In this document: positions 4,182-21,927 of the stretch, piece by piece | How the letters are laid out: the number at the start of each line of letters is the position of its first letter | Position numbering within the stretch: the first letter of the stretch is position 1 | Source: Methylophilus sp. QUAN | GTDB taxonomy: Bacteria; Pseudomonadota; Gammaproteobacteria; Burkholderiales; Methylophilaceae | Assembly (NCBI RefSeq): GCF_015354445.1 | Contig: NZ_JADKYT010000001.1 | Coordinates: 124,001 to 188,000, forward strand | DNA length: 64,000 nt | Reading direction: 5' to 3' | The notes under the pieces: generated by a model | Database searches by the model: none | Told to the model about the DNA's origin: nothing | The model's input: only the letters and a program-made list of their open reading frames with translations | Translations under genes and position numbers: made by a program

Positions 4182-5769
4182 GCCCTTTTTTTGCCACAGC
4201 TTCAGCATGAATCATGCGGTTGATAGCCCATTGCTGCCAGATAGACAGAATGTTGTTCACCAACCAGTACAACACCAGGCCAGCAGGGAAGAAGAAGAAG
4301 AAAATACTGAATGCCACTGGCATGATTTTCATGACTTTGGCTTGAATCGGGTCGGTCGGTGGCGGATTCAAAAAGGTTTGAATAATCATGGTCGCGCCCA
4401 TCAATACCGGCAACACAAAGTAGGGGTCAGTGGCTGACAAGTCTTGAATCCAGCCAAAAAATGGCGCATGGCGCAACTCAACTGAGCCCAGCAATACCCA
4501 ATACAATGAAATGAACACTGGAATCTGCACCAGGATAGGCAAGCAACCCCCCATCGGGTTGATCTTCTCGGTGCGGTACATTTCCATCATGGCTTGCTGC
4601 AGTTTTTGCTTGTCATCGCCAAATTTGTCTTTCAGCGCTTGCATGCGTGGGGCAATTTCACGCAAATGCGCCATATTGCGGTAACCGGAAGCAGACAACT
4701 TGAAGAAGGCAGCCTTGATCAGAATGGTCAACACAATGATGGCAATACCCCAGTTTTTCACCAATTCGTGAATATGGGTCAACAACCACATCAATGGTTT
4801 GGCAATCACCGTCAGAATGCCGTAATCCACCACGTATTCCAGGCCAGGCGCAGCAGCTTCCAAATCCTCTTGGGCTTGTGGGCCACTAAACAGTTTTGCA
4901 TCTACAGTTTTACTGTTACCCGCAGCAATTTCACCCACAGGCAAAATGGTACCGATAGAGAAATCATGTTCACTCAGCTTGGTCGTGTAGAACTTGCGCT
5001 CAGCTGTGGATTGCGGCACCCAGGCACTGACAAAATAATGTTGTACCAAGCCTACCCAGCCATCTTTGGCATTAATCGACACATCTTTTTTGGCCATTTC
5101 ATCAAATTTGACCTTGTTATATTTATCCGCTTCGGTGAAATAAGCACCACCGGTAAACGTAGGCATCATTTTAGAGCCCTGGTTAGACTCATTATCATGA
5201 ATAATCTGGTAATACACTGACGGTGAAATCGCTTTATCGCTGTTGTTTTTGATTTCATACTGCACATCGATCAGGTATTGGCCACGGTGGAAACGATACA
5301 CCTTATCCACAGCCACACCATTGGTTTCTGGCGCAGTTAAACGCACTTCCAATGTGTCCTGGCCTTCTTGCAGGCTGTAATTGGTCTCAGCCGCAGTAAA
5401 CGTTACATAATGCGTAGGTAAGCCATCACCTTTTAAACCGGTTTGCGCCACATACAACTTATCTGCACTGGCATCACTCATGAGCTCATAAGGGCCAGAG
5501 TTGTCATCTGCCTTATGCTCAAGCAAAGACAACTGACGCAGATCACCGCCCACCGTATCAATCACTGCCGCATAACGGTCTGTTTTCACCGCAATGCGTG
5601 AACCCTGGCTGAGTTTAAAACCATTTTCCTGTGGTTTGTCAGCAGGGGAAGTTTGCACCGCCTCTTGCTGTGCAACTGGCGCAGGCGCGTGTTGCTGCTG
5701 CCAGGCGTCCCATAGCAACATAATTGAGAAGGAAAAGATCACGAACAGAATTAAACGGCGAGTATCCAT
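4171..5769 (-). CDS. yidC: YidC membrane protein insertase
   Basis: Inner-membrane insertase and chaperone that works alone or with SecYEG, 532 residues, normal for proteobacteria. The N-terminal helix ([20 protein letters not shown]) is followed by a large periplasmic beta-sandwich domain (about residues 50-330). The conserved 60KD_IMP core carries the hydrophilic-groove Arg in SASGYRNMA and the [15 protein letters not shown] segment, and the tail is basic. It lies 19 bp after yidD in the leftward rpmH operon and overlaps mnmE by 11 bp. Confidence 0.97.
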
Positions 5770-5788
5770 AAGGTTTCGTTTTTACAGG

Positions 5789-5998
5789 TCAGGGAAGGGG
5801 ATCCACACCACCGGGATGCCATGGATGACAGCGGCCAATGCGGCGCAAAGCTAACAGGCTACCATGCCAGGCACCATAGCGCTGTAATGCCTCAATGGCG
5901 TAGTGTGAACAGGTTGGATGAAAACGACACTGACGGCCCAGCCAGGGGCTTAAGCCCCACTGGTAACATTTCACGAATGTAATCAGTATCGTTTTCAT
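5789..5998 (-). CDS. yidD: YidD membrane protein insertion efficiency factor
   Basis: Small (69 residues) inner-membrane-associated protein that helps YidC-dependent insertion. It shows the family core CRFHPTCSHYAIEALQRYG with its conserved cysteines, and the HPGGVDP end. An amphipathic N-terminal segment (ILITFVKCYQWGLSPWLG) is typical. It lies 8 bp after rnpA and 19 bp before yidC, the universal order. Confidence 0.94.
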   Translation of the reverse strand: MKTILITFVKCYQWGLSPWLGRQCRFHPTCSHYAIEALQRYGAWHGSLLALRRIGRCHPWHPGGVDPLP

Positions 5999-6006
5999 CA
6001 GTATCG

Positions 6007-6351
6007 TTAAGAAACGGGCGCAGTTTTTTTCAGTCTAGCCAGCAATTGTGACAAATCACGTTGTATGGCCGGAAAATCTTCGTGTTGAAAAGCCTTGCGT
6101 ACTTGTAACACAACATCAAAGCCATGACCGGCCAGAGAGGGTTGTGCGCGCAACAATTCTCGCAAAACGCGCTTCATATAGTTGCGCTTGACCGCCAGTT
6201 TGGCGACTTTTTTCGACACGACCAAACCGTAGCGATGATGGTCTTGCTGGTTAGGCATGATGTTGGCAAACAGCCATTCACCATAAAACCGTTTCCTGAA
6301 ACTAAAAACGGATGAAAATTCATCCGTTTTTTTTAGCTTGTACAATGTCAT
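6007..6351 (-). CDS. rnpA: Ribonuclease P protein component
   Basis: Basic protein subunit of RNase P, which trims the 5' leader of tRNA precursors. It contains the RNR-type signature around KRNYMKRVLRELLR and the N-terminal LKKTDEFSSVF segment. I use the ATG at 6351 (114 residues), which agrees with family length; an in-frame TTG at 6369 would add six residues, and neither has a clear ribosome site. It lies 33 bp after rpmH and is probably translated from the same transcript. Confidence 0.92.
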   Translation of the reverse strand: MTLYKLKKTDEFSSVFSFRKRFYGEWLFANIMPNQQDHHRYGLVVSKKVAKLAVKRNYMKRVLRELLRAQPSLAGHGFDVVLQVRKAFQHEDFPAIQRDLSQLLARLKKTAPVS

Positions 6352-6384
6352 GCATTGAGTTTCAAGCAATGCATCCGTCAGGGA

Positions 6385-6519
6385 TTACAGACCCAGACGT
6401 TTACGACCTTTAGCGCGACGAGCAGCAATCACTGCACGGCCACCTTTGGTTTTCATGCGTACCAGAAAGCCATGGGTACGTGCACGACGGGTTTTGGATG
6501 GTTGATAGGTACGTTTCAT
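6385..6519 (-). CDS. rpmH: 50S ribosomal protein L34
   Basis: 44-residue ribosomal protein starting [19 protein letters not shown] and ending AKGRKRLGL, diagnostic of L34. A strong ribosome site (GGCAGGAG) lies about 7 bp before the ATG. First gene of the leftward rpmH-rnpA-yidD-yidC-mnmE string, divergent from dnaA. Confidence 0.97.
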
Positions 6520-6844
6520 TATTAAACTCCTGCCAAAAGTGGCAATTAAACTCTAATCCGGCAACGCTGATTTAACAGTGAATATTTGCCGATTTCAAAA
6601 ACCCTTAATTAAACAGCAAACCGCAACCTTATGTCAATGATTTTTTTTATTTTTTTATAGGCCATGGCTGTGGATAACTCAGGTCAAAACGTTTAGAATG
6701 TCTGCAACAGGTCAAGGTGATAATCGCCACACGGCCACGTCTTCTGCCACTCTTCCCGGCAATTATAACGAATAAACGCAAACAGCGCCTGAAACACGGA
6801 AACGGGCTGACTTTTTGCTGACACTTTTAAAAAGCACTGGAGCA
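6520..6844. promoter_or_regulatory. rpmH-dnaA intergenic region with a perfect DnaA box
   Basis: This 325-bp gap must carry the divergent rpmH and dnaA promoters. It contains an A/T-rich stretch at about 6638-6660 (a long T run) and, next to it, a perfect DnaA box TGTGGATAA at 6669-6677 (reverse orientation). The box could mediate DnaA autoregulation or form part of a bipartite origin. I found no second perfect box here. Confidence 0.65.
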
Positions 6845-8260
6845 ATGGAAAATTTTTGGGCTTATTGTTTGCTCAAGTTCGAAAAAGAACTTTCGGCACA
6901 ACAATACAATACCTGGATTAAACCCCTCAAAGCACGCGTCAATGGCGAGGCGGTGCAGATTGTCGCGCCTAATAAATTTGTCATGCAGTGGGTTAAAAGC
7001 AAGTTTTTTACCCGCATTGCCACCATTGCTACCGAATTATCTCCCACTGCCGTCGTTGAACTGATCGTAGATACCAGTGAGCAGGCTGCACCTGCACCAA
7101 GCACCCCTGCGGTTAAAGCTACCCCCTCCGCGCAATCTCCAGTAGAAGCAGTGGTAGCTGCTGCCACTCAAACCACCAGGGTTATTGATAAAAAACCGGT
7201 GAGCAACCGCGCGCCGGCCAAACACCTCAAATCAGAGAAAAGCAGTGGCTTGAATGACAGTTTCCTGTTTGATAACTACGTCACTGGCCGTGCCAACCAG
7301 TTGGCACGTGCTGCAGCGATTCAAGTAGCTGGCAATCCTGGTCAGGCGTATAACCCCTTATTTATTTATGGTGGCGTGGGCTTGGGCAAAACCCATTTAT
7401 TGCAGGCGATTGGCAATGAGCTGAAAAAAGCCAAGCCGGAAGCCAATATACGCTACCTGCACGCTGAACGTTATGTGTCTGACGTGGTGAAAGCTTACGA
7501 AAATAAAGCGTTTGACGAGTTCAAGCAGCAATATCACTCTCTCGATTTATTACTGATTGATGATATTCAGTTCTTTGCCAAAAAAACCCGCACCCAGGAA
7601 GAGTTTTTCTACGCGTTTAACACGCTGATTGAAGAAAAAAAGCAAATTGTCATTACTTGCGATACTTATCCTAAAGAGATCGCAGACATGGATGAGCGCC
7701 TGCGCACGCGTTTTAGCTGGGGCCTGACCGTGGCCGTTGAACCGCCAGAGCTGGAAATGCGCGTTGCGATTTTGCGCAAAAAAGCCGAAAACCTCAAAAT
7801 CAACCTGCATGAAGATGTGGCTTTCTTTGTTGCCAAACAGATTCGTTCCAGCGTACGTGAGCTTGAAGGTGCACTAAACCGTATTATTGCCATGGCCAAC
7901 TTTACTGGCCACGCCATTGATGTGCACCTGGCCAAAGATGCTTTGCGCGACCTGATCGCTGTGCGCGGCCGCCAGATCACGATTGAAAACATCCAGAAAA
8001 CCGTCGCTGACTACTATAAGATTAAAGTCAGCGACATGTTTAGCAAAAAACGTTCACGTAATGTGGCCAGGCCGCGCCAGGTTGCGATGTCACTGGCGCG
8101 TGAACTGACCAATCACAGCTTCCCGGAAATCGGGGAAGCATTTGGCGGGCGTCATCACACAACCGTGATGCATGCCTGTGAAGAAATTGAACAATTACGC
8201 TTAAATGACCAGACATTAGCGCGAGATATTGGTTTGTTGACACAGGTCATTCGTGACTAG
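6845..8260 (+). CDS. dnaA: Chromosomal replication initiator DnaA
   Basis: AAA+ ATPase that binds DnaA boxes and melts oriC. With the ATG at 6845 the product is 472 residues, starting MENFWAYCLLKFEKELSAQQ. Domain I occupies about 1-90, a variable Ala/Pro/Thr-rich linker about 90-135, the ATPase domain has Walker A GGVGLGKTH and Walker B LLLIDDIQF, and domain IV has the DnaA signature GGRHHTTVMHACEEI. A TTG at 6815 would add ten residues, but the family N terminus and a GGAG before the ATG favour 6845. Confidence 0.97.
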   Translation: MENFWAYCLLKFEKELSAQQYNTWIKPLKARVNGEAVQIVAPNKFVMQWVKSKFFTRIATIATELSPTAVVELIVDTSEQAAPAPSTPAVKATPSAQSPVEAVVAAATQTTRVIDKKPVSNRAPAKHLKSEKSSGLNDSFLFDNYVTGRANQLARAAAIQVAGNPGQAYNPLFIYGGVGLGKTHLLQAIGNELKKAKPEANIRYLHAERYVSDVVKAYENKAFDEFKQQYHSLDLLLIDDIQFFAKKTRTQEEFFYAFNTLIEEKKQIVITCDTYPKEIADMDERLRTRFSWGLTVAVEPPELEMRVAILRKKAENLKINLHEDVAFFVAKQIRSSVRELEGALNRIIAMANFTGHAIDVHLAKDALRDLIAVRGRQITIENIQKTVADYYKIKVSDMFSKKRSRNVARPRQVAMSLARELTNHSFPEIGEAFGGRHHTTVMHACEEIEQLRLNDQTLARDIGLLTQVIRD

Positions 8261-8516
8261 CAAAAAAAATTTAACAAAATAAGCTGTGGATAAGTTGAGA
8301 ATGACGTGTGTTTAAATATTGCGTATAGACTGGATAAAATCAGTTTACAATATCAGCCACAAATAATGCATGTTTAAACCGCAATTTATGCACAAGCTAA
8401 AATGTTTGTAAGTCTTTGAATTAAATTATTTTTTAGACTTACCCACAAAAAAGTTGCACATTACTATTAGTCTTATCTTTTATATATTGAAATAAAGTTA
8501 TTAATCAGGTCAGGCC
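8261..8516. promoter_or_regulatory. Probable replication origin (oriC) between dnaA and dnaN
   Basis: The 256-bp A/T-rich gap carries one perfect DnaA box (TGTGGATAA, 8285-8293, reverse) and two single-mismatch boxes in the opposite orientation (TTATGCACA 8386-8394 and TTACCCACA 8439-8447). They are followed by a very A/T-rich segment (about 8461-8508) that could be the unwinding element. The dnaA-dnaN gap is a common origin site, and nearby parS sites agree. It must also include the dnaN promoter. Origin activity is inferred. Confidence 0.7.
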
Positions 8517-9620
8517 ATGCAAATCAAAATCAACCGTGAGGTTTTGCTTAAACCCCTTAATAGTGTTACTGGCATCGTAGAGCGCAGACATACATTGCCT
8601 ATCCTTTCTAATCTGCTGGTGAACATCAAGCAGCAGGAAATGCATCTGACAGCCACTGATCTGGAAATGCAGATTTCGCTGAAAGTGAATGGCGGGGTAG
8701 AGGGCGAATTAAGTACAACGATCTCTGCTAAAAAATTGCTAGATATTTGTCGCTCATTGCCAGATAGCGCATCTATTGAAATGAATAACCAGGACAACCG
8801 CATCACGCTCAAGGCAGGCAAGAGCCGCTTTAACCTGCAAACCTTGCCAGCCGCGGATTATCCTTTGATGAGTAAAGCCAGTGGCCAGAACATTAGTTTC
8901 AGCCTGGCGCAATCAGAGCTCAAGCGCTTGCTGAAACAGGTTGAATTTGCCATGGCGCAGCAAGATATCCGTTATTACCTCAACGGCTTACTGCTGGAAG
9001 TGAATGGCAACCAGTTGCACGTCGTGGGCACGGATGGCCATCGTTTGAGCTATACCAATACCACGCTGGATCAGAGCTTTGAAAAAACGGAAGTGATCCT
9101 GCCACGTAAAACTGTGCTGGAGCTGACCAAATTACTGGATGAGCAATCTGAAACACCAGTGGTGATTGATTTACTCAATGGCCAGGTCAGCTTTGAGTTT
9201 GGTGATATTCAACTGATCAGCAAAGTGATTGACGGCAAGTTCCCCGACTACAACAGAGTGATCCCAACTGGTCATCAAAATACATTTATGGTGAACCGTG
9301 TGGCAATTTTGAGTGCCTTACAACGGGCTTCGATTTTGTCCAATGAAAAATACCGCAGTATTCGCATGGTGATCACGCAAGGCCTGCTTAAGTTGATTAG
9401 TACTAACACTGAGCAGGAAGAAGCGGAAGAAGAACTGGAAATTGATTACAGCCAGGTTGCACTGGATATTGGTTTTAATGTCACTTACCTGATTGATGTG
9501 CTGAATAACCTTGGCGATGAGCAAATTGAGTTTGCGTTTGCCGATGCCAACAGTAGCTGCCTGATCACGGCGGCCAGCGATGCCAACTATAAATACGTTG
9601 TGATGCCAATGCGCATATAA
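8517..9620 (+). CDS. dnaN: DNA polymerase III sliding clamp (beta subunit)
   Basis: Ring-shaped processivity clamp, 367 residues, the normal length. The start MQIKINREVLLKPL, internal RHTLPILSNLLV and the end ANYKYVVMPMRI are the typical beta-clamp N and C termini. It sits in the classical dnaA-dnaN-gyrB order; recF is absent between dnaN and gyrB. Confidence 0.97.
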   Translation: MQIKINREVLLKPLNSVTGIVERRHTLPILSNLLVNIKQQEMHLTATDLEMQISLKVNGGVEGELSTTISAKKLLDICRSLPDSASIEMNNQDNRITLKAGKSRFNLQTLPAADYPLMSKASGQNISFSLAQSELKRLLKQVEFAMAQQDIRYYLNGLLLEVNGNQLHVVGTDGHRLSYTNTTLDQSFEKTEVILPRKTVLELTKLLDEQSETPVVIDLLNGQVSFEFGDIQLISKVIDGKFPDYNRVIPTGHQNTFMVNRVAILSALQRASILSNEKYRSIRMVITQGLLKLISTNTEQEEAEEELEIDYSQVALDIGFNVTYLIDVLNNLGDEQIEFAFADANSSCLITAASDANYKYVVMPMRI

Positions 9621-9632
9621 TGCCTGCACCCG

Positions 9633-12107
<2,475 letters not shown>

Positions 12108-12156: not shown

Positions 12157-12181
12157 ATTACTCACTTTAAAGCTTAAAAAC

Positions 12182-13072
12182 ATGCAAGACTCAAACCCGC
12201 GCTTCAATCATGCCACGCTAGTCGGTTGTTGCGCCGTGCTGATGTGGAGCGTGACTGTCGGCTTATTCAGGAGTGTGGCTGAAATTTTTGGCCCGATAGC
12301 GGGTGCGGCCATGATTTTTAGCGTTGCCGGGTTATTTGCCAATACGATTATCGGCGCGCCTAAGCTCAAAACGTTCCCCAGGCTATATCTATGGGTAGGC
12401 GGCGGCCTGTTCGTGCTCTACGAGGTCCTGCTGGCGCTTTCTATCGGCACTGCGACTGACAGATGGCAGGTACTTGAGCTGGGGATGATCAATTACCTGT
12501 GGCCCAGCCTGACCATTTTGTTTGCAGTGATAGCTCGTCAGCAACGCGGTCACTGGTTATTGCTACCGGCCATGGCGCTTTGTTTATTGGGTATTGCTTG
12601 GGTGATGAAAGGCGAAGGTGCCTGGTCACCCGCCACCTTCTTGCATAATGTCCAGCGTAATCCCATCGGCTATGGCATGGCATTGTTAGCTGCCATCATC
12701 TGGGCGGTGTATTCGGTATTTACCCGCCGCTTTGGCAAAGGTATCAACGGTGTGCCGCTATTTCTCGTCACCACGGCTGCGGTGCTATGGCTTGCTTACG
12801 GGCTTAGTGACGAAGTGACTTTGGTATTCAATCTGGCCGGGTTACTCCAGGTCTGTGTCATGGGCACGCTGATGGCCACCGCCTATTCGTGCTGGAACTA
12901 CAGCATTCAGCACGGCAACCTGGCACTACTGGCAACGATGTCGTATTTCACCCCAGTATTATCGGTGTTACTGGCCTGCCTATGGTTAGGTGTCGCACCA
13001 GGCGCCGGATTTATGTACGGCGTGGGTTTGGTCACGCTGGGCTCATTACTCAGTGGCCGGGCCAGCCAGTAG
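12182..13072 (+). CDS. yddG: YddG-like aromatic amino acid exporter (EamA/DMT family)
   Basis: Ten-helix inner-membrane transporter of the drug/metabolite family, 296 residues. I recognise the E. coli YddG pattern: VLMWSVTVGLFRSVAE near the start, GMINYLWPSLTILFAV around residue 105, and GNLALLATMSYFTPVLSVLLA near the end. YddG exports aromatic amino acids and some other solutes; substrate here is inferred from the family. It begins 25 bp beyond the gyrB terminator without an obvious strong ribosome site and converges on the downstream hydrolase gene. Confidence 0.85.
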   Translation: MQDSNPRFNHATLVGCCAVLMWSVTVGLFRSVAEIFGPIAGAAMIFSVAGLFANTIIGAPKLKTFPRLYLWVGGGLFVLYEVLLALSIGTATDRWQVLELGMINYLWPSLTILFAVIARQQRGHWLLLPAMALCLLGIAWVMKGEGAWSPATFLHNVQRNPIGYGMALLAAIIWAVYSVFTRRFGKGINGVPLFLVTTAAVLWLAYGLSDEVTLVFNLAGLLQVCVMGTLMATAYSCWNYSIQHGNLALLATMSYFTPVLSVLLACLWLGVAPGAGFMYGVGLVTLGSLLSGRASQ

Positions 13073-13073
13073 T

Positions 13074-13841
13074 TCATGGTGACGACCCGGTAAATTGCCT
13101 GATTAACTGGCAAAGCGTGTCAAAAGCCGGGTGCTGCTGGTTGCTTACATTAAAAGCGCTGTCTTGCAGTCTTTGTACTTGTACCGGTACGCCCGCGAGC
13201 AGCAGTTTCGTGGCATAGGTTTCGGCTTCATCCCTGAGCGGGTTGCTGTCACTGCTGATGATCATCGCAGGGACCAGTCCGCCCAGCCGACAGGAATTCA
13301 CTGGTGACACATACGGGTGCAAGGCATTACTCGCCACCTGCGTATAATCTGCCCAGGCCCGGCGGCACGCGCTATCTGCCACGGCTGTCAGTGACTTTGA
13401 GGTTTGTAGCGCGTCCAGCATGGGGTTGATCAGTATTTGCCCCTGAAGCGTGTTGCGGCAATTCAGGCCACGGTCGCGGAACAACATGGACACCACCGCA
13501 GCCAGGTTACCGCCAGCTTGCTCCCCGCCAACAAATATCCTTTTGGCATCTGCACCTATTGTTTTTGCGTGTGCGCACACCCACGCCAGCGCTTGGTAGG
13601 CGACCTCTATGGTGTCAGGAAACTGCATGGCAGGCGCCAAGGGATAAGCCACACACACCACTACCATGTGTTCAGAGAGTGCATGGGCCAAATCATATGC
13701 CGTTTCAATACTGCCGCAGTTAAACAAGCCGCCATGAAAATAAATCAGGGCAGCTTGCCTGCTTTTGGCATCGCCTTTGCCAAATACCTGCAAAGTAATT
13801 GGTGCGGCACTGGCCGGATATTCAAAGCTTGTGGTCCACAT
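13074..13841 (-). CDS. Alpha/beta-hydrolase of the HSL/acetyl-hydrolase type with degenerate catalytic residues
   Basis: 255-residue alpha/beta-hydrolase-fold protein. The oxyanion-hole motif is present (YFHGGLF, about residue 34), but the nucleophile elbow normally reading GDSAGG is GEQAGG, so the catalytic Ser is replaced by Gln. The acid segment NPLRDEAE is retained, while the position that normally carries the HGF histidine reads DSAFNV. It therefore looks like a non-hydrolytic pseudoenzyme, perhaps binding a ligand, or an inactivated gene. The reading frame is intact, against simple decay. It is the last gene of a leftward SDR-GST-hydrolase group, 3 bp after the GST. Confidence 0.75.
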   Translation of the reverse strand: MWTTSFEYPASAAPITLQVFGKGDAKSRQAALIYFHGGLFNCGSIETAYDLAHALSEHMVVVCVAYPLAPAMQFPDTIEVAYQALAWVCAHAKTIGADAKRIFVGGEQAGGNLAAVVSMLFRDRGLNCRNTLQGQILINPMLDALQTSKSLTAVADSACRRAWADYTQVASNALHPYVSPVNSCRLGGLVPAMIISSDSNPLRDEAETYATKLLLAGVPVQVQRLQDSAFNVSNQQHPAFDTLCQLIRQFTGSSP

Positions 13842-13844
13842 GGT

Positions 13845-14480
13845 TTAAAGTGTGGGCACCGCCATGCCCAGCTTCACTGCAGGGCGTTCGCCTATGCGCT
13901 TCAGCCAGCGTTGCAACGCCGGTTTAGTGTCAAACGAGCCTTTCAATGCCTCTTTAAAATAGACCGTGGCTGCTTGCACCCAAGGGTAACAGGCGATATC
14001 GGCGATGGAGTATTCTTCACCTGCCAGGTAAGCATGGCTTGCTAACTGCTTCTCCATCACGCTGAATAGCCTTTCTGCTTCTTCGATAAAGCGTGCGATG
14101 GCTAATGGCGATTTTTCCTGGCTACGCACCGCGAAAAAACCGAGCTGGCCCAGCATGGGCCCCAGCGCACTGGTTTGCCAGTGCAACCATTCCAGGGCGT
14201 TATAGCGCGCCTGCCCATGCGGTGCCAGAAACTGGCCGTACTTTTCGGCCAGGTAGGTCAAAATAGCGCCGCTCTCAAAAATCACGACCGGGTCACGATC
14301 TGGTTCGGTATCGATGATGGCCGGAATCTTGTTGTTAGGCGAAATCGCACTGAAGTGTGCAGAAAACTGCTCCAGCTTGCCCAGATCAACCGGGCTCACC
14401 GCATAGTCAAGTCCTAACTCCTCCAGCAGGATGGAGATCTTTCGACCATTTGGTGTGGCCCATGTGTATAAGTTGATCAT
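13845..14480 (-). CDS. Glutathione S-transferase family protein (YfcG/YghU type)
   Basis: 211-residue cytosolic GST-fold protein. The N-terminal thioredoxin-like domain starts MINLYTWATPNGRKISILLEE with the Thr/Asn pair used by the nu-class/YfcG group in place of a catalytic Tyr or Cys. It continues with NNKIPAI and the glutathione-binding IFESGAILTYLAEKYG. The C-terminal helical domain has the conserved YSIADIACYPW. Family members are disulphide-bond reductases or glutathione transferases acting on reactive electrophiles. It lies in one group with the SDR and the degenerate hydrolase, downstream of a divergent LysR gene. Confidence 0.88.
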   Translation of the reverse strand: MINLYTWATPNGRKISILLEELGLDYAVSPVDLGKLEQFSAHFSAISPNNKIPAIIDTEPDRDPVVIFESGAILTYLAEKYGQFLAPHGQARYNALEWLHWQTSALGPMLGQLGFFAVRSQEKSPLAIARFIEEAERLFSVMEKQLASHAYLAGEEYSIADIACYPWVQAATVYFKEALKGSFDTKPALQRWLKRIGERPAVKLGMAVPTL

Positions 14481-14497
14481 CTGTTTGCTCTCTAAAA

Positions 14498-15247
14498 TTA
14501 ACGCAAGCCACCGCCTACCAGCAATTGCTCGCCAGTCAGCCAGTAAGAGTCTTCAGAGGCTAAAAAGGCCGCCACTGACGCAATATCATTCGGCTGGCCA
14601 GTGCGCCCCAGCGGTGTTTGTGCCACATAGCCACTCTCCATCTCTGAGCCAATCACGCCCGCCGTCTGTGTGCCTTCCGTGGCAACCAGGCCAGGGTTCA
14701 AGGCATTGACGCGAATCTTGCGTGGGCCCAGTTCTTTGGATAACGAACCGGTGATGGCATCTACCGCGCCTTTAGTGGCGGTGTATACCGCCGCGCCAGG
14801 AGGCGTTAAACGGCTGACCACAGAACCAATGTTGATAATGCTGCCACCTTCAGGCAGATATTTAACCGCCGCTTGCGTGGTGAGCAACAAGCCCAGCACG
14901 TTGATGTTGAATTGTTTGTGGAAGTGTTCAGGGGTGATTTCTTCGATGCTACCGAATTCATAAATTCCGGAGTTGTTGACCAAAATATCCAGCTTGCCAA
15001 AGTTGCTAATCGCCGCTTCGACAATCGCCTGTGCGTCTGCCGCTTCACTCACATTGCCACCCACGGCCACCGCCTTGCCACCCGCGGCTGTAATATCAGC
15101 CACCACTTTGTCGGCACCGGCCTTGCTGGATAAGTAATTGACGACAACGGCTGCGCCATCACGGGCAAAACGTTTAGCGATTTCAGCACCGATGCCTTTA
15201 GATGCACCAGTCACCACGGCTACTTTACCTTCAAGTTTCTTGCTCAT
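14498..15247 (-). CDS. Short-chain dehydrogenase/reductase
   Basis: NAD(P)H-dependent oxidoreductase of the classical SDR family, 249 residues. The cofactor motif TGASKGIG lies near residue 14, NNSG near 90, the catalytic Ser in NIGSVVS and the YTATK motif follow, and the C terminus ends LLVGGGLR. It resembles FabG/glucose-dehydrogenase-like SDRs, but the substrate cannot be told from sequence. First gene of the leftward group, with a 137-bp gap to the divergent LysR gene, which may control it. Confidence 0.9.
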   Translation of the reverse strand: MSKKLEGKVAVVTGASKGIGAEIAKRFARDGAAVVVNYLSSKAGADKVVADITAAGGKAVAVGGNVSEAADAQAIVEAAISNFGKLDILVNNSGIYEFGSIEEITPEHFHKQFNINVLGLLLTTQAAVKYLPEGGSIINIGSVVSRLTPPGAAVYTATKGAVDAITGSLSKELGPRKIRVNALNPGLVATEGTQTAGVIGSEMESGYVAQTPLGRTGQPNDIASVAAFLASEDSYWLTGEQLLVGGGLR

Positions 15248-15384
15248 AAAAATCTCCTAAATAAAAAGTAATGAAGTTGTTTGAAACTGGTGACCACTAT
15301 AAATAAATAAAAAATACAGATAAATCACCTAAATATGCAATCACTGTGCTAATTTATTGGACAATAAGATTGAAAAGGGAGTGT

Positions 15385-16299
15385 ATGGACCGCTTTGACT
15401 CCATGCTGGCGTTCACGCGAGTGGTAGAGCTGGAGAGCTTTACCAAAGCCGCCATGTCACTCAATTTGCCCAAAACTACCGTCTCGGCCCAGGTGCTGGC
15501 GCTGGAAAAACGTTTGCGCGTGAAGTTGCTGCATCGCACCACGCGCCGTATCAGCGTCACCACCGATGGCGCCGCCTATTACGAACGCGCCATCAGATTA
15601 TTAAACGAGCTAGAAGAAACCGAAGCCGCCCTCAACCAGGCCACGGCCAGTGCAAAAGGGCGCCTGCGTGTAAATGTGCCCACGCCATTGGGGCGGTTAG
15701 TGATTATTCCGGCGCTGCCAGACTTTTTTAAAAAATACCCGGAGATACAACTCGAAATCGGCTGTGACGACAGGCCAATTGATTTGCTCGAAGAAGGCGT
15801 CGATTGCGTGATCCGCATCGGCAATTTGCTCGATTCCAGCCTGGTCGCCCGCCGTGTAGGCACCATGCAGTTTTTGCTCGTCGCCTCGCCAGACTACTTA
15901 AAAACCCACGGCACACCACAAACCCCAGACGACCTGCAACGCCACCAGGCTGTGCACTTCTTTTCCTCCAAAACCGGCAAAGTGCGCAACTTTATTCTTG
16001 AGCAAGATGGCGAAGTGCAGGAAATCCCCACCATACGTAAACTGGCCATTAATAATGGCGACGCAATTGTCGCCGCCGCGCTGGCAGGCATAGGCATCTG
16101 CCAGTTGCCCACGTTTATGGTACAAGGCTATTTAACAGAGGGTAAGTTAGATAAAGTGTTGGGCGACAACCCGGCAGGGAGTTTGCCGATTAACGCGCTC
16201 TATCCGCAAAACCGGCATTTATCCTCAAAAGTTCGGGCGTTTATTGAATGGGTGGCAGAGTTGTTTGCTGAGTGCGAGTTGCTGCAAAAGGTTGGCTAA
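15385..16299 (+). CDS. LysR-family transcriptional regulator
   Basis: 304-residue LysR regulator. The N-terminal winged helix-turn-helix reads FTKAAMSLNLPKTTVSAQV, the linker helix follows, and a periplasmic-binding-like effector domain occupies about 90-300 (GRLRVNVPTPLG, DCVIRIGNLLDSSLVARR). The start at 15385 is chosen because AAGGGAG lies 5 bp upstream; the frame runs 13 codons further up without a ribosome site. Divergence from the SDR-GST-hydrolase genes suggests it regulates them, the usual LysR arrangement. Confidence 0.92.
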   Translation: MDRFDSMLAFTRVVELESFTKAAMSLNLPKTTVSAQVLALEKRLRVKLLHRTTRRISVTTDGAAYYERAIRLLNELEETEAALNQATASAKGRLRVNVPTPLGRLVIIPALPDFFKKYPEIQLEIGCDDRPIDLLEEGVDCVIRIGNLLDSSLVARRVGTMQFLLVASPDYLKTHGTPQTPDDLQRHQAVHFFSSKTGKVRNFILEQDGEVQEIPTIRKLAINNGDAIVAAALAGIGICQLPTFMVQGYLTEGKLDKVLGDNPAGSLPINALYPQNRHLSSKVRAFIEWVAELFAECELLQKVG

Positions 16300-16361
16300 A
16301 AAATTATTCTGGAATAATCTAGTTAAAAATATAATCGTCAACATAATTAAGAACAAACTCT

Positions 16362-18743
16362 ATGATTGTTTATTCCGCTACTAAAAGAGAGTTTCTTGAT
16401 GATGTCAGATCCAACAGAATTGCTGAAATCATCGAATCCGAGGTTTTAAGAAAACTCAATCGAAACTCACCAAGAAACGAAAAGCTTTCCTGGGAAAACT
16501 CCCTTCAGTATATGTCGCAGATTCTTTGGGATGAGGATATTCCTCCATCATCTCGGGTAGCGATTGAATATAACTTACCGATGACAAATCGGCGGGTGGA
16601 TTTTATTCTTACTGGTAAGGATCAGGAGCACAATGACACCGCTATTATTGTCGAGCTTAAGCAGTGGCAAGAGGTTGAGAAAACAAATAAAGACGCTATC
16701 GTTAAAACATGGTTGCAGCGTGGCGAAGTAGAAACAAACCATCCCTCATATCAGGCGTGGTCATATGCTGCACTTATTGAAGATTATAACGAAACGGTTC
16801 GAAAAGAGTCCATTCGCTTGCAGCCTTGTGCTTATCTGCATAACCTAAAATCTAGATCGGTTATAGACGATCCTTTTTATGCAAGTCATACAGAAAAAGC
16901 TCCAGTATTTGTATCGCAAGACGCTATTAAGCTTTCCGAGTTTCTAAAGCAGCATGTGAAGTACGGTGATAGTAACAACGTCATGTATCGGATCGAACAT
17001 GGTGTTATCAAACCATCAAAGAATTTGGCTGATGCTTTAGCTTCGATGTTGTCGGGTAACTCAGAGTTTTTGATGATTGATGAGCAAAAGTTGGTCTATG
17101 AAACTGCTCTGGATTTAGCGCACAAAGCTCAGCATGGTAAGAAACAAACGTTGATAGTAAAAGGCGGGCCAGGCACAGGTAAATCCGTGGTTGCTATCAA
17201 TCTATTAGGCGAGCTCACAAATCGCGAAATGCTCGTGCAGTATGTTTCGAAAAATGCAGCGCCTCGAGCAGTGTTTAAGGAAAAGCTAACAGGTTCTAAA
17301 AAGAAAACTCACATTGACCAAATGTTTAAAGGGTCTGGCGCTTATATCGAAGTTGAGCCTAATCAGTTTGGAGCTTTAATTGTTGATGAGGCTCACCGAC
17401 TGAATGAGAAATCTGGTCTTTACAGCAATCTTGGCGAAAACCAAATTAAAGAGCTGATAGCGGCATCAAGGTTTAATGTCTTTTTTATTGATGAAGCTCA
17501 ACGAGTTACTTTAAGTGATATTGGAACTATCAATGAAATTACGCTTTGGGCAGACAAGCTTGGTTCCACGGTTACCGAGTTAGAACTAGTTTCACAATTT
17601 AGATGTAATGGTTCCGATGGTTATCTGGCATGGGTGGATAACAGCTTACAAATTCGCGAAACCGCTAATCCCACCCTTGAAGATATTGATTACGATGTCA
17701 AAATATTTGATGACCCGAATCAATTAAGAGCCGCCATAGTTGAGAAAAACAGAGTTTCAAATAAAGCGCGCTTAGTAGCCGGATATTGCTGGGATTGGGC
17801 TAGCAAAAAAGATAAATCAGCCTTCGATATCATTATCTCTGAGTTTAGTTTCAAAGCTCGATGGAATTTAGATGAAGATGGAAGTTTGTGGCTGATAGCT
17901 GCTCATTCAGTAGAGCAGATTGGATGCATCCACACCTGTCAGGGATTAGAGCTTGATTATGTCGGTGTGATTATTGGCGATGACTTTGTCATCCGTGATG
18001 GTGTTGCAATCACAGATGCCGGAAAACGTTCTTCAAACGATAAATCAATACGTGGCTATAAGACACTATTAAAAAATGAACCCTACAAAGCCAAACAACT
18101 AACTGGCGAAATTATCAAGAATACCTATCGAACATTAATGACTCGAGGGCAAAAGGGTTGTTATATCTTTTGTACCGACGAAGAAACAAGAAACTACTTT
18201 AAAAAGGTAGTAAGTTGCCAAGAGCAAGTCATAAATGATGTGACTACTGAGTATTCCGGTTTGGATTTAAACGTGGTTTCATTTGAGCAAGCAAAACCAT
18301 ATAAAACGCATGTACCAATTTACGATTTAAAAGCTGCGGCTGGTGGCTTTAGTGATTTTCAAATGATGGAAGAATATCAGTGGGTTGAATTACCTAGCCA
18401 TATCAACGTCAGCGAAGGCATGTTCGTGATGCAGGTTGTTGGCGAGTCAATGAATCGTCGTATACCTAATGGATCATGGTGTTTATTTAAAGCTAATCCA
18501 GGCGGTACTCGCAATGGAAAAATTGTGCTTGTTCAGCATCGTGAAATTGAGGACCCTGATCACGGAGGCGAATACACAGTAAAGGTTTATAGCAGCCAAA
18601 AAACTTTTGTTGAAGATATCCCAAAAAACACAAAGATTGTCTTAAAACCAGACACTTCTGCATATGGATATAAGCCAATTGTTTTTGAAAATGATAATGA
18701 AAGTTTAGTCGTACTTGGTGAGTTTCTAACTGTTATTAATTGA
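16362..18743 (+). CDS. Nuclease-helicase-S24 peptidase fusion (DUF2075-type helicase)
   Basis: 793-residue multidomain protein. Residues 1-160 look like a PD-(D/E)XK nuclease: Asp80 in RRVDFIL and Glu98-Leu-Lys100 in IIVELKQW. Residues 240-615 form a superfamily 1 helicase of the DUF2075 type: Walker A GGPGTGKS (268-275), VDEAH (341-345), FFIDEAQ (375-380), SQFRCNG (411-417), HTCQGLELDYVGV (524-536) and NTYRTLMTRGQKG (587-599). Residues 650-793 form a LexA/UmuD-like S24 peptidase: candidate cleavage site Ala660-Gly661 in LKAAAGG, nucleophile Ser696 in VVGESM, and general-base Lys741 in YTVKVY. The mix suggests a nucleic-acid-sensing defence or repair factor whose activity may be released by self-cleavage; that role is inferred. 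It is A/T-richer than its neighbours, indicating transfer. Confidence 0.82.
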   Translation: MIVYSATKREFLDDVRSNRIAEIIESEVLRKLNRNSPRNEKLSWENSLQYMSQILWDEDIPPSSRVAIEYNLPMTNRRVDFILTGKDQEHNDTAIIVELKQWQEVEKTNKDAIVKTWLQRGEVETNHPSYQAWSYAALIEDYNETVRKESIRLQPCAYLHNLKSRSVIDDPFYASHTEKAPVFVSQDAIKLSEFLKQHVKYGDSNNVMYRIEHGVIKPSKNLADALASMLSGNSEFLMIDEQKLVYETALDLAHKAQHGKKQTLIVKGGPGTGKSVVAINLLGELTNREMLVQYVSKNAAPRAVFKEKLTGSKKKTHIDQMFKGSGAYIEVEPNQFGALIVDEAHRLNEKSGLYSNLGENQIKELIAASRFNVFFIDEAQRVTLSDIGTINEITLWADKLGSTVTELELVSQFRCNGSDGYLAWVDNSLQIRETANPTLEDIDYDVKIFDDPNQLRAAIVEKNRVSNKARLVAGYCWDWASKKDKSAFDIIISEFSFKARWNLDEDGSLWLIAAHSVEQIGCIHTCQGLELDYVGVIIGDDFVIRDGVAITDAGKRSSNDKSIRGYKTLLKNEPYKAKQLTGEIIKNTYRTLMTRGQKGCYIFCTDEETRNYFKKVVSCQEQVINDVTTEYSGLDLNVVSFEQAKPYKTHVPIYDLKAAAGGFSDFQMMEEYQWVELPSHINVSEGMFVMQVVGESMNRRIPNGSWCLFKANPGGTRNGKIVLVQHREIEDPDHGGEYTVKVYSSQKTFVEDIPKNTKIVLKPDTSAYGYKPIVFENDNESLVVLGEFLTVIN

Positions 18744-18932
18744 AGGGGTAAAAATGTGTACTTCACAATATTTAGTATTCCCTAGCTTGAAAGTATAACA
18801 AGTACAATTTAAGCTGCAGGGGACTCCGCGGCGCACAACACGAAGTCCAGCTGGTTAGCACACAGTCTCATCGGTATCCCTCTCGGAGTGAATAGTTACT
18901 CCGACTGTGATACTTCGCTTCTCGCAATGATC
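18744..18932. other. Intergenic stretch with a possible structured element
   Basis: A 189-bp gap between two convergent accessory genes. It is richer in G/C than the genes on both sides and contains a perfect hairpin CGGAGT / ACTCCG around the 8-base loop GAATAGTT (18884-18903). There is no poly-T tract and no open frame worth calling. It may be a residual non-coding RNA or mobile-element end; I do not recognise a known family. Confidence 0.35.
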
Positions 18933-20381
18933 CTATGAAGTCACTTCGTTAAGAATCCTTGTTAAAACATCCTCTTCTGGATTAGCTTGATCTGCAAGAA
19001 TCTTATCTAGCATTTCAATCAAATCCGCATCCATTAGTGGGATGATCAAACCTTGACCAGCACCGTAAGCATCTCGACACCGCTTAATCAAAGTGTCTCT
19101 GTCTTGAACGGTTCTACATATAAGCATTCCAAACTTGCCACGATTGACATGAAATCTGCTTATCAGTTGGTCGACTTCAGGATTTGCAACATCATTTCTA
19201 TAATTTTTACATTCAATCATGATGTAAGCACAAGGTATTTGATGGTGTGTTGATAGTCTCCAAAAAATTCCGCTTGATGCTGAATTGTCGAATGTAATGT
19301 CAATTCTTTTTCGCCCCTCATTAATTACTTTTTCAACCGTTAAACAAGTAAGTCTTGGATAAAAGAGCAGCTCAAGAATTGCGGCAACTGTTTTATGATA
19401 TATGGAGGCATTTTCGCTACCAACTCCCAGTGAGGCTAATTGTTCCTTTAAATGTCTTACTAAATCATTAACTTCAGTTCGTGAATCGAGCTCATTATTG
19501 CCTAATGACTGCATGCCTTTAGCCTGATATTGTCTGAAGCGAGCAAAGACTTCTCTATGACTTTGAGTAAACTGTGACAAGAAATCTTTATCAAGGGGTG
19601 CCTCTGCTTCTTTGATGCTTTCTTTAGTTACCCATCTCCTAACCTCCCCATTTCTGTTTCTTTTGCTTTGTACCAAAGCTGAGTTCAATCTTAGATGCTC
19701 GCTTTGTTTGAAGTTAAGGACAAAGTGCTGATGAAATTGTTGATGTGTATATCTTTTCGCATAAGAGACAATGGCCTTAGGAACCAATAGAATTTTTCTC
19801 TCTTGAATTACAAGCATTTCTGTATGAGTTTGCTCCCAACGTCGAGTTTGTCTGTTCCAATACTCACCAGACGCTACTCCATTCTGTAAAGGAAAGCTCC
19901 ACAATTTAGCTTGGCTTTGAGTGTATGCTATGAGCTGCTCTCGAATGATATTTGTTGTCATATCTGAAACCTTATCTTTATCGATATTTTCAACAAAAAT
20001 TCTAAAATCTTCTAAATGTTCAAGTAACCCAGTTTGCAATGCTCTGCTCTGGCGAATGCTTTCAAATATTGCATCAGCATTTTGAGAGCCAATGCCATTA
20101 CCCCTAGGTGTTCCAACAGATAACCCCAAACAAGTTTCATTAGGTTCATGTAGGTGATTGAATATCTCTCTTGCATTATTGATTTCACCTGCTTGCATCA
20201 AATCTATAAATGTTTGAAAAAAACTACCAATAGTTCTTGTAGCTTCTACACTGAATGAATCTGTCCGGTGACTAAGGAAGTATGGGTCAAGAAACAATCT
20301 TGTGTCTCGTTCAATGTCAATATCTATAAAATCCAGTTCGTATTGAGTTCTGTTGAGACCAAATATTTGGCTAATCTTCAT
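18933..20381 (-). CDS. PD-(D/E)XK (Mrr-like) restriction nuclease homologue
   Basis: 482-residue protein of no family I can name. The C-terminal third carries a convincing restriction-endonuclease core: Glu337 (AAILELLF), Asp361 (RKRIDITF), Glu390-Cys-Lys392 (IMIECKNY), then PEVDQLISRF, which fits the Mrr/Card-1-like motif with a Gln after the core. The N-terminal two thirds are helical and charged without recognisable motifs and may recognise a target or partner. The start at 20381 is supported by an excellent ribosome site (GGGAGGT, 7 bp upstream), so an upstream frame extension to 20414 is rejected. It is A/T-rich and convergent with the helicase fusion, so it is probably part of the same defence-like segment. 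Confidence 0.72.
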   Translation of the reverse strand: MKISQIFGLNRTQYELDFIDIDIERDTRLFLDPYFLSHRTDSFSVEATRTIGSFFQTFIDLMQAGEINNAREIFNHLHEPNETCLGLSVGTPRGNGIGSQNADAIFESIRQSRALQTGLLEHLEDFRIFVENIDKDKVSDMTTNIIREQLIAYTQSQAKLWSFPLQNGVASGEYWNRQTRRWEQTHTEMLVIQERKILLVPKAIVSYAKRYTHQQFHQHFVLNFKQSEHLRLNSALVQSKRNRNGEVRRWVTKESIKEAEAPLDKDFLSQFTQSHREVFARFRQYQAKGMQSLGNNELDSRTEVNDLVRHLKEQLASLGVGSENASIYHKTVAAILELLFYPRLTCLTVEKVINEGRKRIDITFDNSASSGIFWRLSTHHQIPCAYIMIECKNYRNDVANPEVDQLISRFHVNRGKFGMLICRTVQDRDTLIKRCRDAYGAGQGLIIPLMDADLIEMLDKILADQANPEEDVLTRILNEVTS

Positions 20382-20469
20382 TACTTTACCTCCCTGAAAT
20401 TTTTTAGCACCCAAAGTTAATTGAAATTGTTTTGAAGTTGGTTAAATCTAATAAAGAGCTTAAATAGAA

Positions 20470-20583
20470 TTACTTTCTATTGTTTTCACCTTCTATCAGT
20501 GCTTTTCTAAGCGTCTCAATTTGGGCTTTAATCCAGCTATCTTGCTGGTCAGTCATGGTGATGGTTTTGCGTACAGTTGCCAT
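20470..20583 (-). pseudogene. ParD-like antitoxin with an internal deletion
   Basis: A 37-codon frame starts MATVRKTITMTDQQDSWIKA, the classic N terminus of ParD ribbon-helix-helix antitoxins, then jumps straight to TLRKALIEGE, the typical C-terminal toxin-binding segment. The usual middle (the second helix region ending in IRRDQ, about 30-40 residues) is missing, as if deleted in frame. No ParE toxin gene follows. The remnant sits directly upstream of the PD-(D/E)XK gene. I read it as a decayed toxin-antitoxin module. Confidence 0.65.
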
Positions 20584-20884
20584 AATGGAGCCTTTAAAAA
20601 TGACGCGTTGAACACGAGGGATGTGTTAATACTATGAAAATATCATACGCACGGCAAGCGGATGTACAGAGCTGCTGGCGAGAACCGTCAAAGTATCGGT
20701 ATGATGTAGGAATACACTAAGAGTAAGTTGAAATCTTTGGCTATAAACCACTAGGCGTTTTTATACGGAGTATCGTTGGCGTGGATGTGAATGCAGCTTT
20801 GACGATGCTGATATGAAGAAGGTGATTCAGTTGGTGGGCGAGGTGAATGAGAATGCGTTGGTCAGGGTTGGATAGTTGGAAAAA
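20584..20884. other. Gap with short gene fragments upstream of rhuM
   Basis: About 300 bp without a full gene. A short frame running to the TAG at 20873 encodes a tail reading DDADMKKVIQLVGEVNENAL and has no start codon close by; it looks like the 3' end of a decayed gene. Another 28-codon frame starts at about 20634 (MKISYARQADVQ). Neither is recognised. The rhuM promoter presumably lies here. Confidence 0.35.
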
Positions 20885-21901
20885 ATGACTCAGTTAATTC
20901 TATATACAAGTGAAGATGGTCAAGCCCAAGTGCAACTTAGAGCTGATCGGGGTACGGTCTGGCTGACTCAGAGGCAAATGGCAGAGTTGTTCGATGTTTC
21001 CACAGATAATGTAAGTCTTCATCTAAAGAATATTTACGAAGATAGTGAGTTAGTCTTGGAGGCAACTACCGAGGATTCCTCGGTAGTTCAAATTGAGGGT
21101 GGTCGTGAAGTGCGGCGAAACGTTTCGCTCTACAATCTTGATGCCATCTTGGCCGTAGGTTATCGCGTCCGTTCACCGAGGGGTGTGCAGTTTCGCCGCT
21201 GGGCCAGCACTGTTTTAGCTGAGTATTTGCGCAAAGGTTTCGTCATGGATGACGAACGCCTGAAAAACCCGGATGGTCGCCTGGATTATTTTGATGAAAT
21301 GCTGGAGCGCATCCGGGATATCCGTGCTTCGGAAAAGCGTTTTTATCAGAAGGTACGTGACCTGTTTGCGTTAGCCAGTGACTATGACAAAACGGATCAG
21401 GCCACGCAGCAGTTTTTTGCTACTGTGCAAAACGTGTTGCTCTATGCCGTCACACAACATACTGCTGCTGAGATCATTCTTGCACGTGCAAACCCGGATG
21501 ATCAGCATTTTGGGTTGTTGACCTGGAAAGGTTCGCAAGTACGCAAGCAGGATATTGTTGTGGCGAAAAATTACCTGACCGAAGACGAAGTTGATACGCT
21601 CAACCGCTTGGTGGTGATCTTTCTGGAAACTGCAGAATTACGCGCTAAACGCCAAACTATCACCACTATGGCTTTTTGGCAGCAGCATGTGGGGCAGATT
21701 ATTACCAGCAATGGCTTTCCGTTGCTGAGTGGCGCTGGCAAGAAAACCCATGCATATATGGAGTCCAAGGTGGGTGAGTTGTTTGCTGATTATGATCAGC
21801 GCAGGAAATTGTACGAGGCTCAAGCTGCGGATCAGCAGGATGAGGCAGAGCTGAATGCTTTGGAAAAAAGGATCAAGAACCGTACGGGTAAGCCAGCATA
21901 A
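20885..21901 (+). CDS. RhuM family protein
   Basis: 338-residue member of the RhuM family (COG3943), named after a Salmonella SPI-3 gene and often found next to type I restriction or toxin-antitoxin genes. The N-terminal part has a helix-turn-helix-like segment (TVWLTQRQMAELFDVSTDN) followed by the family block VKRNV-like REVRRNVSLYNLDAILAVGYRV and RGVQFRRWAS. The C-terminal half is helical; a Fic HPF..GN motif is not present. The ATG at 20885 gives the typical start MTQLILYTSEDG; a TTG three codons earlier is possible. Biochemical function is unknown in the family. Its position next to nuclease and antitoxin genes fits a defence-associated role. Confidence 0.82.
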   Translation: MTQLILYTSEDGQAQVQLRADRGTVWLTQRQMAELFDVSTDNVSLHLKNIYEDSELVLEATTEDSSVVQIEGGREVRRNVSLYNLDAILAVGYRVRSPRGVQFRRWASTVLAEYLRKGFVMDDERLKNPDGRLDYFDEMLERIRDIRASEKRFYQKVRDLFALASDYDKTDQATQQFFATVQNVLLYAVTQHTAAEIILARANPDDQHFGLLTWKGSQVRKQDIVVAKNYLTEDEVDTLNRLVVIFLETAELRAKRQTITTMAFWQQHVGQIITSNGFPLLSGAGKKTHAYMESKVGELFADYDQRRKLYEAQAADQQDEAELNALEKRIKNRTGKPA

Positions 21902-21927
21902 AAATAAACATTGGGCATTTAAAGGGT

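Follow-up and report, generated by a model that had tools for sequence, protein, structure and literature searches.

A nuclease-helicase with a predicted self-cleaving S24 module and the recurrence of this module on unrelated DNA-cutting enzymes

A 793-aa protein encoded in the 64-kb stretch of Methylophilus sp. QUAN analysed here (the window) combined a predicted nuclease, a Schlafen group 3 helicase and a LexA/CI-type S24 module. Judging from its sequence and structure model, it is most likely a single-protein anti-phage or restriction-type nuclease-helicase bearing a portable S24 module that is predicted to cleave itself. Every part could be placed in a known family, and the apparent novelty is the S24 module on a defence nuclease-helicase. 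The reuse of the module across unrelated anti-virus DNA-cutting enzymes points to a common putative switch, which DNA damage might throw.

Results

The gene and its surroundings are listed in Table 1. The gene was present in a single copy, as determined with a sequence match search of its own 3.15-Mb genome, and its closest relative found was 91% identical (Methylophilus sp. 13). A Pfam scan of the N-terminal nuclease part of the window protein returned no family. This domain is nevertheless a predicted PD-(D/E)XK-type nuclease: D80, E98 and K100, which form a D...(D/E)xK core, were kept in 50 of 50 rows of alignment A1, and the structure model contained strands at residues 65–71, 78–86 and 92–100. 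The helicase was assigned to Schlafen group 3 (DUF2075) with PF09848 (2.3e-103, 346.7 bits against a cut-off of 24), and its structural matches, among the 50 rows listed in the fold comparison, included FBH1, UvrD and SLFN11. None of these 50 listed rows matched the N-terminal nuclease on its own. The linker had the highest dN/dS of the four parts of the protein (0.289), with a pLDDT <50 for residues 619–629 in the structure model.

Table 1. Features of the nuclease-helicase gene, its island and examples of the MazG-like neighbour. Locations are window positions unless a locus is named.
Feature	Location	Strand	Basis or remark
Whole gene, 793-aa nuclease-helicase-S24 protein	16362..18743	+	Uninterrupted ORF and translation
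PD-(D/E)XK-type nuclease domain (predicted), N-terminal, residues 1–239 (D80, E98, K100)	16362..17078	+	Motif conservation
Schlafen group 3/DUF2075 SF1-type helicase, residues 261–606	17142..18179	+	PF09848
Variable linker, residues 613–649	18198..18308	+	dN/dS, pLDDT
S24 LexA/CI-type module, residues 650–793, predicted self-cleaving	18309..18740	+	Pfam, fold comparison
Predicted cleavage bond Ala660-Gly661 (LKAA-A/GG, cut at the slash)	18339..18344	+	P1/P1' conservation
Predicted nucleophile Ser696	18447..18449	+	Ser in 62/62 modules
Predicted general base Lys741	18582..18584	+	Lys in 61/62 modules
Accessory island with the gene, 5.6 kb, between LysR gene and cation antiporter gene	16301..21926	.	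Flank comparison with L202
PADLOC PDC-M36A candidate (1.2e-42), no Pfam family	18933-20414	-	Adjoins nuclease-helicase gene
RhuM-family gene (PF13310; PADLOC PDC-S05)	20876-21901	+	Same island as nuclease-helicase
MazG-like gene, example	L028:7633-8004		Near Schlafen group 3 gene
MazG-like gene, example	L198:8932-9252		Near Schlafen group 3 gene
MazG-like gene, example	L064:10499-10864		Near Schlafen group 3 gene

The C-terminal part matched Peptidase_S24 at residues 652–777 (Pfam, 1.3e-6, above the family cut-off). In the fold comparison, it took the LexA catalytic-domain fold, and RecA-bound LexA and CI were among the structural matches. Sequence searches of the PDB gave no match with the full window protein, chance-level rows only with the S24 part alone, and LexA at E 0.025 with the S24 profile.

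Conservation of the predicted cleavage residues was determined with 62 distinct modules out of 65 found (ORFs of at least 300 aa, E up to 1e-8). This set included L024 and L038, both of which come from broken or cut genes; the short ends L086 and L082, short duplicate search loci, phage repressors and the second S24 protein of L028 were left out. P1 was Ala in 60 and P1' was Gly in 57 of the 62 proteins, and the window protein contained the Ala-Gly bond. The sole protein without the Lys (L020) had Arg instead and had also lost the Ala-Gly site. In L035, the site was lost and Ser and Lys were retained; both residues were also retained in L096, where P2 was Val and the bond Ala-Thr. The Ser-Lys columns were common to all 46 phage repressors compared. 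Ala at P2 was found in 58 of 62 modules versus 18 of 46 phage repressors. This comparison is phylogenetically non-independent and AAG modules were used to build the profile, for which reasons the P2 Ala may reflect descent. Predicted cleavage would leave an -Ala-Ala end in 58 of the 62 modules, mostly -[AIV]AA. None of the 31 S24-less relatives had an Ala-Ala C-terminus.

A first-pass annotation of this DNA had proposed a nuclease, a helicase and an S24 protease in one chain with an intact self-cleavage site. The architecture was confirmed by the ORF, Pfam, the D80/E98/K100 set and the fold comparison, and the intact site by the presence of Ala660-Gly661, Ser696 and Lys741 in the window protein and their conservation across the 62 modules. 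The comparison with LexA/UmuD structures that it had suggested recovered a LexA/CI fold, and the catalytic pair on which it had staked the idea was conserved in homologues (Ser 62/62, Lys 61/62).

Seventy relatives were found in genome contigs, many of which stopped at 617–657 aa, near the predicted cleavage site. A helicase-core tree with 82 rows comprised 41 PD-type proteins with S24, 31 PD-type proteins without it and 10 GIY-type proteins with it; the 31 S24-less rows included all rows from Bacillota and Bacteroidota. The S24 label of the PD-type proteins required six changes on this tree, which was constructed with a quick search, had 27 of 78 inner branches open and left out L038, L087, L179 and L183. 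Since it was absent from 31 of 82 rows, we consider the S24 tail a regulatory add-on; the tabulation of homologues called for earlier thus identified the module as sporadic. With the module profile (A2 or A3, E up to 1e-12), carriers were detected in 3 of 150 genomes of the window's family, 9 of 369 for the class and 5 of 398 for the phylum; a second class yielded 2 of 78, and two orders 17 of 244 and 1 of 53, respectively. These class, phylum, order and family sets overlap one another.

The S24 part had no match among 50,697 phage records, and the window S24 alone matched nothing in viral contigs. The module profile matched 56 loci in viral contigs; based on score and length, L095 and L096 were long enzymes and the rest were short and repressor-like. 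Among plasmids, the S24 part matched one record, from Halomonas sp. PA16-9, which was also the sole match for the corresponding parts of L083 and L085. On these grounds, a phage or plasmid origin of the module was rejected. The Halomonas plasmid encoded a copy of the window's type (H1; NZ_CP040452.1, 1652241-1654627) at a place where the PLSDB table lists no gene.

A MazG-like gene was located near the Schlafen group 3 gene in 64 of 83 loci (10/10 GIY-type, 32/42 S24-bearing PD-type and 22/31 S24-less), counted if it was encoded on the same strand and no farther away than 300 bp upstream or 1200 bp downstream, with the duplicates L087, L179 and L183 and short search loci omitted. The neighbour was PF12643 in the three that were scanned. 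The window protein shares PF09848 with Schlafen group 3 helicase proteins, but the MazG-like neighbour usual for these was missing: no MazG-like gene was found within the 64-kb window. The Schlafen group 3 nuclease-helicase and the MazG-like gene probably constitute a two-gene system, of which the window would hold a copy without the MazG part.

The same module was detected on several other types of DNA-cutting enzyme. Eleven distinct proteins combined it with a GIY-YIG-like domain and a Schlafen group 3 helicase (L081, L093, L094, L171–L175, L177, L178 and L198). In the three of these scanned with Pfam, the helicase was strong and GIY-YIG scored 20.2–22.6 bits, at or just below the cut-off of 22.6 bits. 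An HNH_4 protein (L083) and four type I HsdR proteins (L084, L085, L095 and L170) also carried the module, L095, from a viral contig, being assigned to HsdR through its likeness to L084 and L085. A type III Res protein with S24 was encoded on another viral contig (L096; PADLOC REase_III, 2e-143), and L169 encoded a 1980-aa S24-bearing helicase with a match to Druantia DruE (1e-117). In L085 and L170, the HsdR-S24 gene shared a gene run with HsdM and HsdS, with an AAA ATPase gene between them in L085.

Adjoining the DruE-like S24 protein, L169 encoded a type IIG restriction-modification (R-M) protein in two pieces approximately 1.5 kb apart (12158-17968, minus strand). In L028, a methyltransferase-HNH_4-S24 protein (4267-6564, plus strand) was encoded three ORFs 5' of a Schlafen group 3-S24 gene, which places two S24 nucleases in one locus; one further ORF and the MazG-like gene lay between the two S24 genes, and matches to ZacC and ZacB followed downstream.

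In L170 (5104-7821, minus strand, followed by HsdM and HsdS), the S24 module was inserted within the nuclease domain of HsdR (residues ~40 to 217). Two S24-less relatives, chosen among 258 matching plasmid records, were compared. Residues 1–37 and 217–545 of L170 aligned as separate blocks with a cyanobacterial plasmid protein (68% and 75%), and residues 4–42 and 218–723 with one encoded on a Methylococcus plasmid (45% and 40%). Both relatives had a short linker at the S24 site of L170, immediately before the GRADYVL...IEAK core of the nuclease. Because the module sits within the domain, cleavage of L170 would sever the first nuclease segment from the catalytic core. Among the individual observations, we consider this insertion the strongest indication of an off switch, although a nicked domain can hold together. 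P2 in L170 was Ser, which predicts a Ser-Ala end rather than -AA.

Upstream regions of the genes, or of their MazG-like operon partners, were scanned for LexA boxes (CTGT-N8-ACAG, the E. coli type) and compared with single-base shuffles, with a few near-duplicate loci included. Boxes with at most one mismatch were found for 2 of 55 S24 loci (expected 5.1) and 3 of 31 S24-less loci (expected 2.1); with at most two mismatches, the counts were 36 of 55 (expected 33.2) and 15 of 31 (expected 17.5). The best match upstream of the window gene had three mismatches to this E. coli-type motif. Since such boxes did not exceed shuffled expectation, transcriptional SOS control was dropped as support. No LexA above the TIGR00498 cut-off was found in the window's own genome (contigs C1–C3), where five places matched the C-terminal part of this family only (best 80.9 bits against 110.95). 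RecA was present.

The LysR gene flanking the window gene had a match in 13 of 22 genomes of the genus, including the window's own, and four of the other 12 were inspected. In one of these (L202), the LysR and antiporter flanks were approximately 24 bp apart, which identifies the intervening window segment as an island. In L199, the same LysR gene adjoined HsdM, HsdS, a Fic-like gene (by eye) and HsdR (Pfam); genes resembling these were located there in L200 (by eye), and a cytosine methylase and a SNF2 helicase in L201 (Pfam). The antiporter was not neighbouring in these three loci. Type I R-M genes thus occurred at the LysR spot in two of the four sister genomes inspected. The window gene sits where R-M systems get exchanged. 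Neither HsdM nor HsdS was found beside it, the other two ORFs of the island being the PDC-M36A candidate and the RhuM gene. Apart from a single 70-bp piece elsewhere, the window resembled Methylophilus sp. 13 only over the ORF and a few additional bases, which suggests that the gene travelled as a unit. The defence-type setting implied by the first reading was supported by the island, the R-M genes at the LysR spot of sister genomes and the PADLOC matches.

The island also contained a short frame (20470-20585, minus strand) with a stop after 37 codons and one copy in the genome, which resembles the start of a ParD-type antitoxin (by eye); it had a 70-bp piece in common with L030. The island begins approximately 4 kb from gyrB (9657-12107, by eye). 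In L198, from the window's family, a GIY-YIG-like, Schlafen group 3 and S24 gene with its MazG-like partner (6752-9252) adjoined gyrB (by eye).

Discussion

Nhi (nuclease-helicase immunity, DUF2075) joins a nuclease and a DUF2075-type helicase in a single protein, and to our knowledge it has no S24 tail. The window protein shares the first two parts and differs by its S24 tail. Its PADLOC match to Nhi was partial (3.4e-8, 30.6 bits, residues 239–387 only); it appears to be related to Nhi, and identity with Nhi is not claimed. The match to PDC-S41, a candidate phage-defence model, covered part of the helicase only (8.6e-19, best stretch 382–604). With LexA, UmuD and lambda CI, the S24 part has the fold, the Ser-Lys pair and the Ala-Gly bond in common; its partner is a nuclease-helicase, whereas theirs is a DNA-binding repressor or polymerase subunit. 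In the open-access literature, we found no account of a defence nuclease with an S24 domain, which is weak evidence of absence as subscription papers mostly lie outside it. Within that literature, the earlier impression that no system of such design had been described was borne out.

S24 repressors cleave themselves at Ala-Gly on RecA-ssDNA, and an -Ala-Ala end is a LexA/ssrA-like signal for ClpXP; a LexA fragment ending in -VAA was reportedly shown to be taken by ClpXP in a 2003 paper on LexA and ClpX. We hypothesize that the module acts as a brake set off by DNA damage, in effect a restriction alleviation that the enzyme itself carries. RecA filaments on ssDNA would trigger cleavage at Ala660-Gly661, as with LexA and CI. 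Upon host DNA damage, self-cleavage would strip the tail and expose a new -Ala-Ala C-terminus, and ClpXP would take this product, withdrawing the nuclease during chromosome repair. That cleavage switches the S24-bearing nuclease-helicase off is a reading to which we give a nearly even chance.

Several observations led us to prefer this direction. The HsdR carriers should act on incoming DNA without prior damage, the L170 module was inserted inside the nuclease domain, and the frequency of P2 Ala relative to the repressors would mostly yield -[AIV]AA ends. Restriction is also known to be calmed after damage: according to the available part of one account, type I systems are suppressed after treatment with UV, 2-aminopurine or nalidixic acid (PMC3874165), and according to that of another, suppression runs via ClpXP, the HsdR degron being unknown (PMC4231737). 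In type I restriction alleviation, it is thus likewise a helicase-nuclease, HsdR, that is removed by ClpXP, for example on DNA damage, and neither an S24 module nor self-cleavage is mentioned for HsdR in the available parts of these accounts (PMC3874165, PMC4231737).

Other observations weigh against a brake. L170 has Ser and L096 Val at P2, and L035 has lost the cleavage site; as L170 lacks the P2 Ala, the insertion and -AA-end arguments never meet in one protein. RecA as the trigger is an assumption, the module is missing from many relatives, and the window's genome, though it encodes RecA, had no LexA above the family cut-off. Restriction alleviation need not use a LexA-type switch, since plasmid-induced alleviation was independent of SOS activation in the available part of a 2024 E. 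coli study (PMC11109961).

The predicted product (residues 1–660) would resemble the natural S24-less enzymes, which fits the release of an active enzyme equally well. The tail may instead keep the enzyme inactive or tethered until RecA* or a phage signal induces self-cleavage, and the freed 660-aa enzyme would then attack phage or host DNA. The length of the product, near the 617–657 aa of S24-less relatives, agrees with such an activation; cleavage activates S24 proteins such as UmuD, and ssDNA arises in phage replication. We consider activation unlikely, though worth retaining, given the module on type I HsdR in gene runs with HsdM and HsdS, its position within the nuclease domain of L170, and the usual -AA end (58/62), which suits removal and not release. 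The first-pass annotation had proposed an enzyme kept inactive by its C-terminal domain and released on cleavage, a direction that these points do not support. The damage-gated suicide role that it had also raised would be a possibility.

The S24 part might also function without regulated cleavage, through constitutive maturation, or through dimerisation or RecA docking, by which the nuclease would be recruited to recombination intermediates. S24 domains dimerise, RecA-bound LexA and CI were among the structural matches, and L035 and L096 lack the Ala-Gly bond yet keep Ser and Lys. The conservation of P1 Ala, P1' Gly and the Lys (60, 57 and 61 of 62) is not expected for docking alone, which makes this explanation rather improbable. 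That the protein is a repair or recombination enzyme tuned by DNA damage and not a defence gene is very improbable: the helicase is structurally like UvrD and FBH1, but the gene is sporadic (module in 3/150 family genomes), its island site is empty in L202 and R-M genes lie beside the same LysR gene in L199–L201, its similarity to the 91% relative extends only a few bases beyond the ORF, and PADLOC matched PDC-S41, Nhi and AbiO.

Returning to the damage-triggered brake, a broader proposal concerns the module itself. A portable S24 cassette may have been joined repeatedly to unrelated immune nucleases as a RecA-controlled fuse against autoimmunity, by which damaged cells would let these enzymes cut themselves and be marked for destruction; we put this forward tentatively, as a possibility of some weight. 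The AAG...GxSM...TVK module could serve as a sequence tag for finding further defence nucleases. If true, a portable fuse shared by many immune nucleases would go beyond a variant of a known theme. Protein self-cleavage, and not transcription, would then link the SOS/RecA signal to these nucleases directly, a coupling testable with one protein and RecA, and this would explain how defence enzymes that attack DNA spare the host chromosome under repair.
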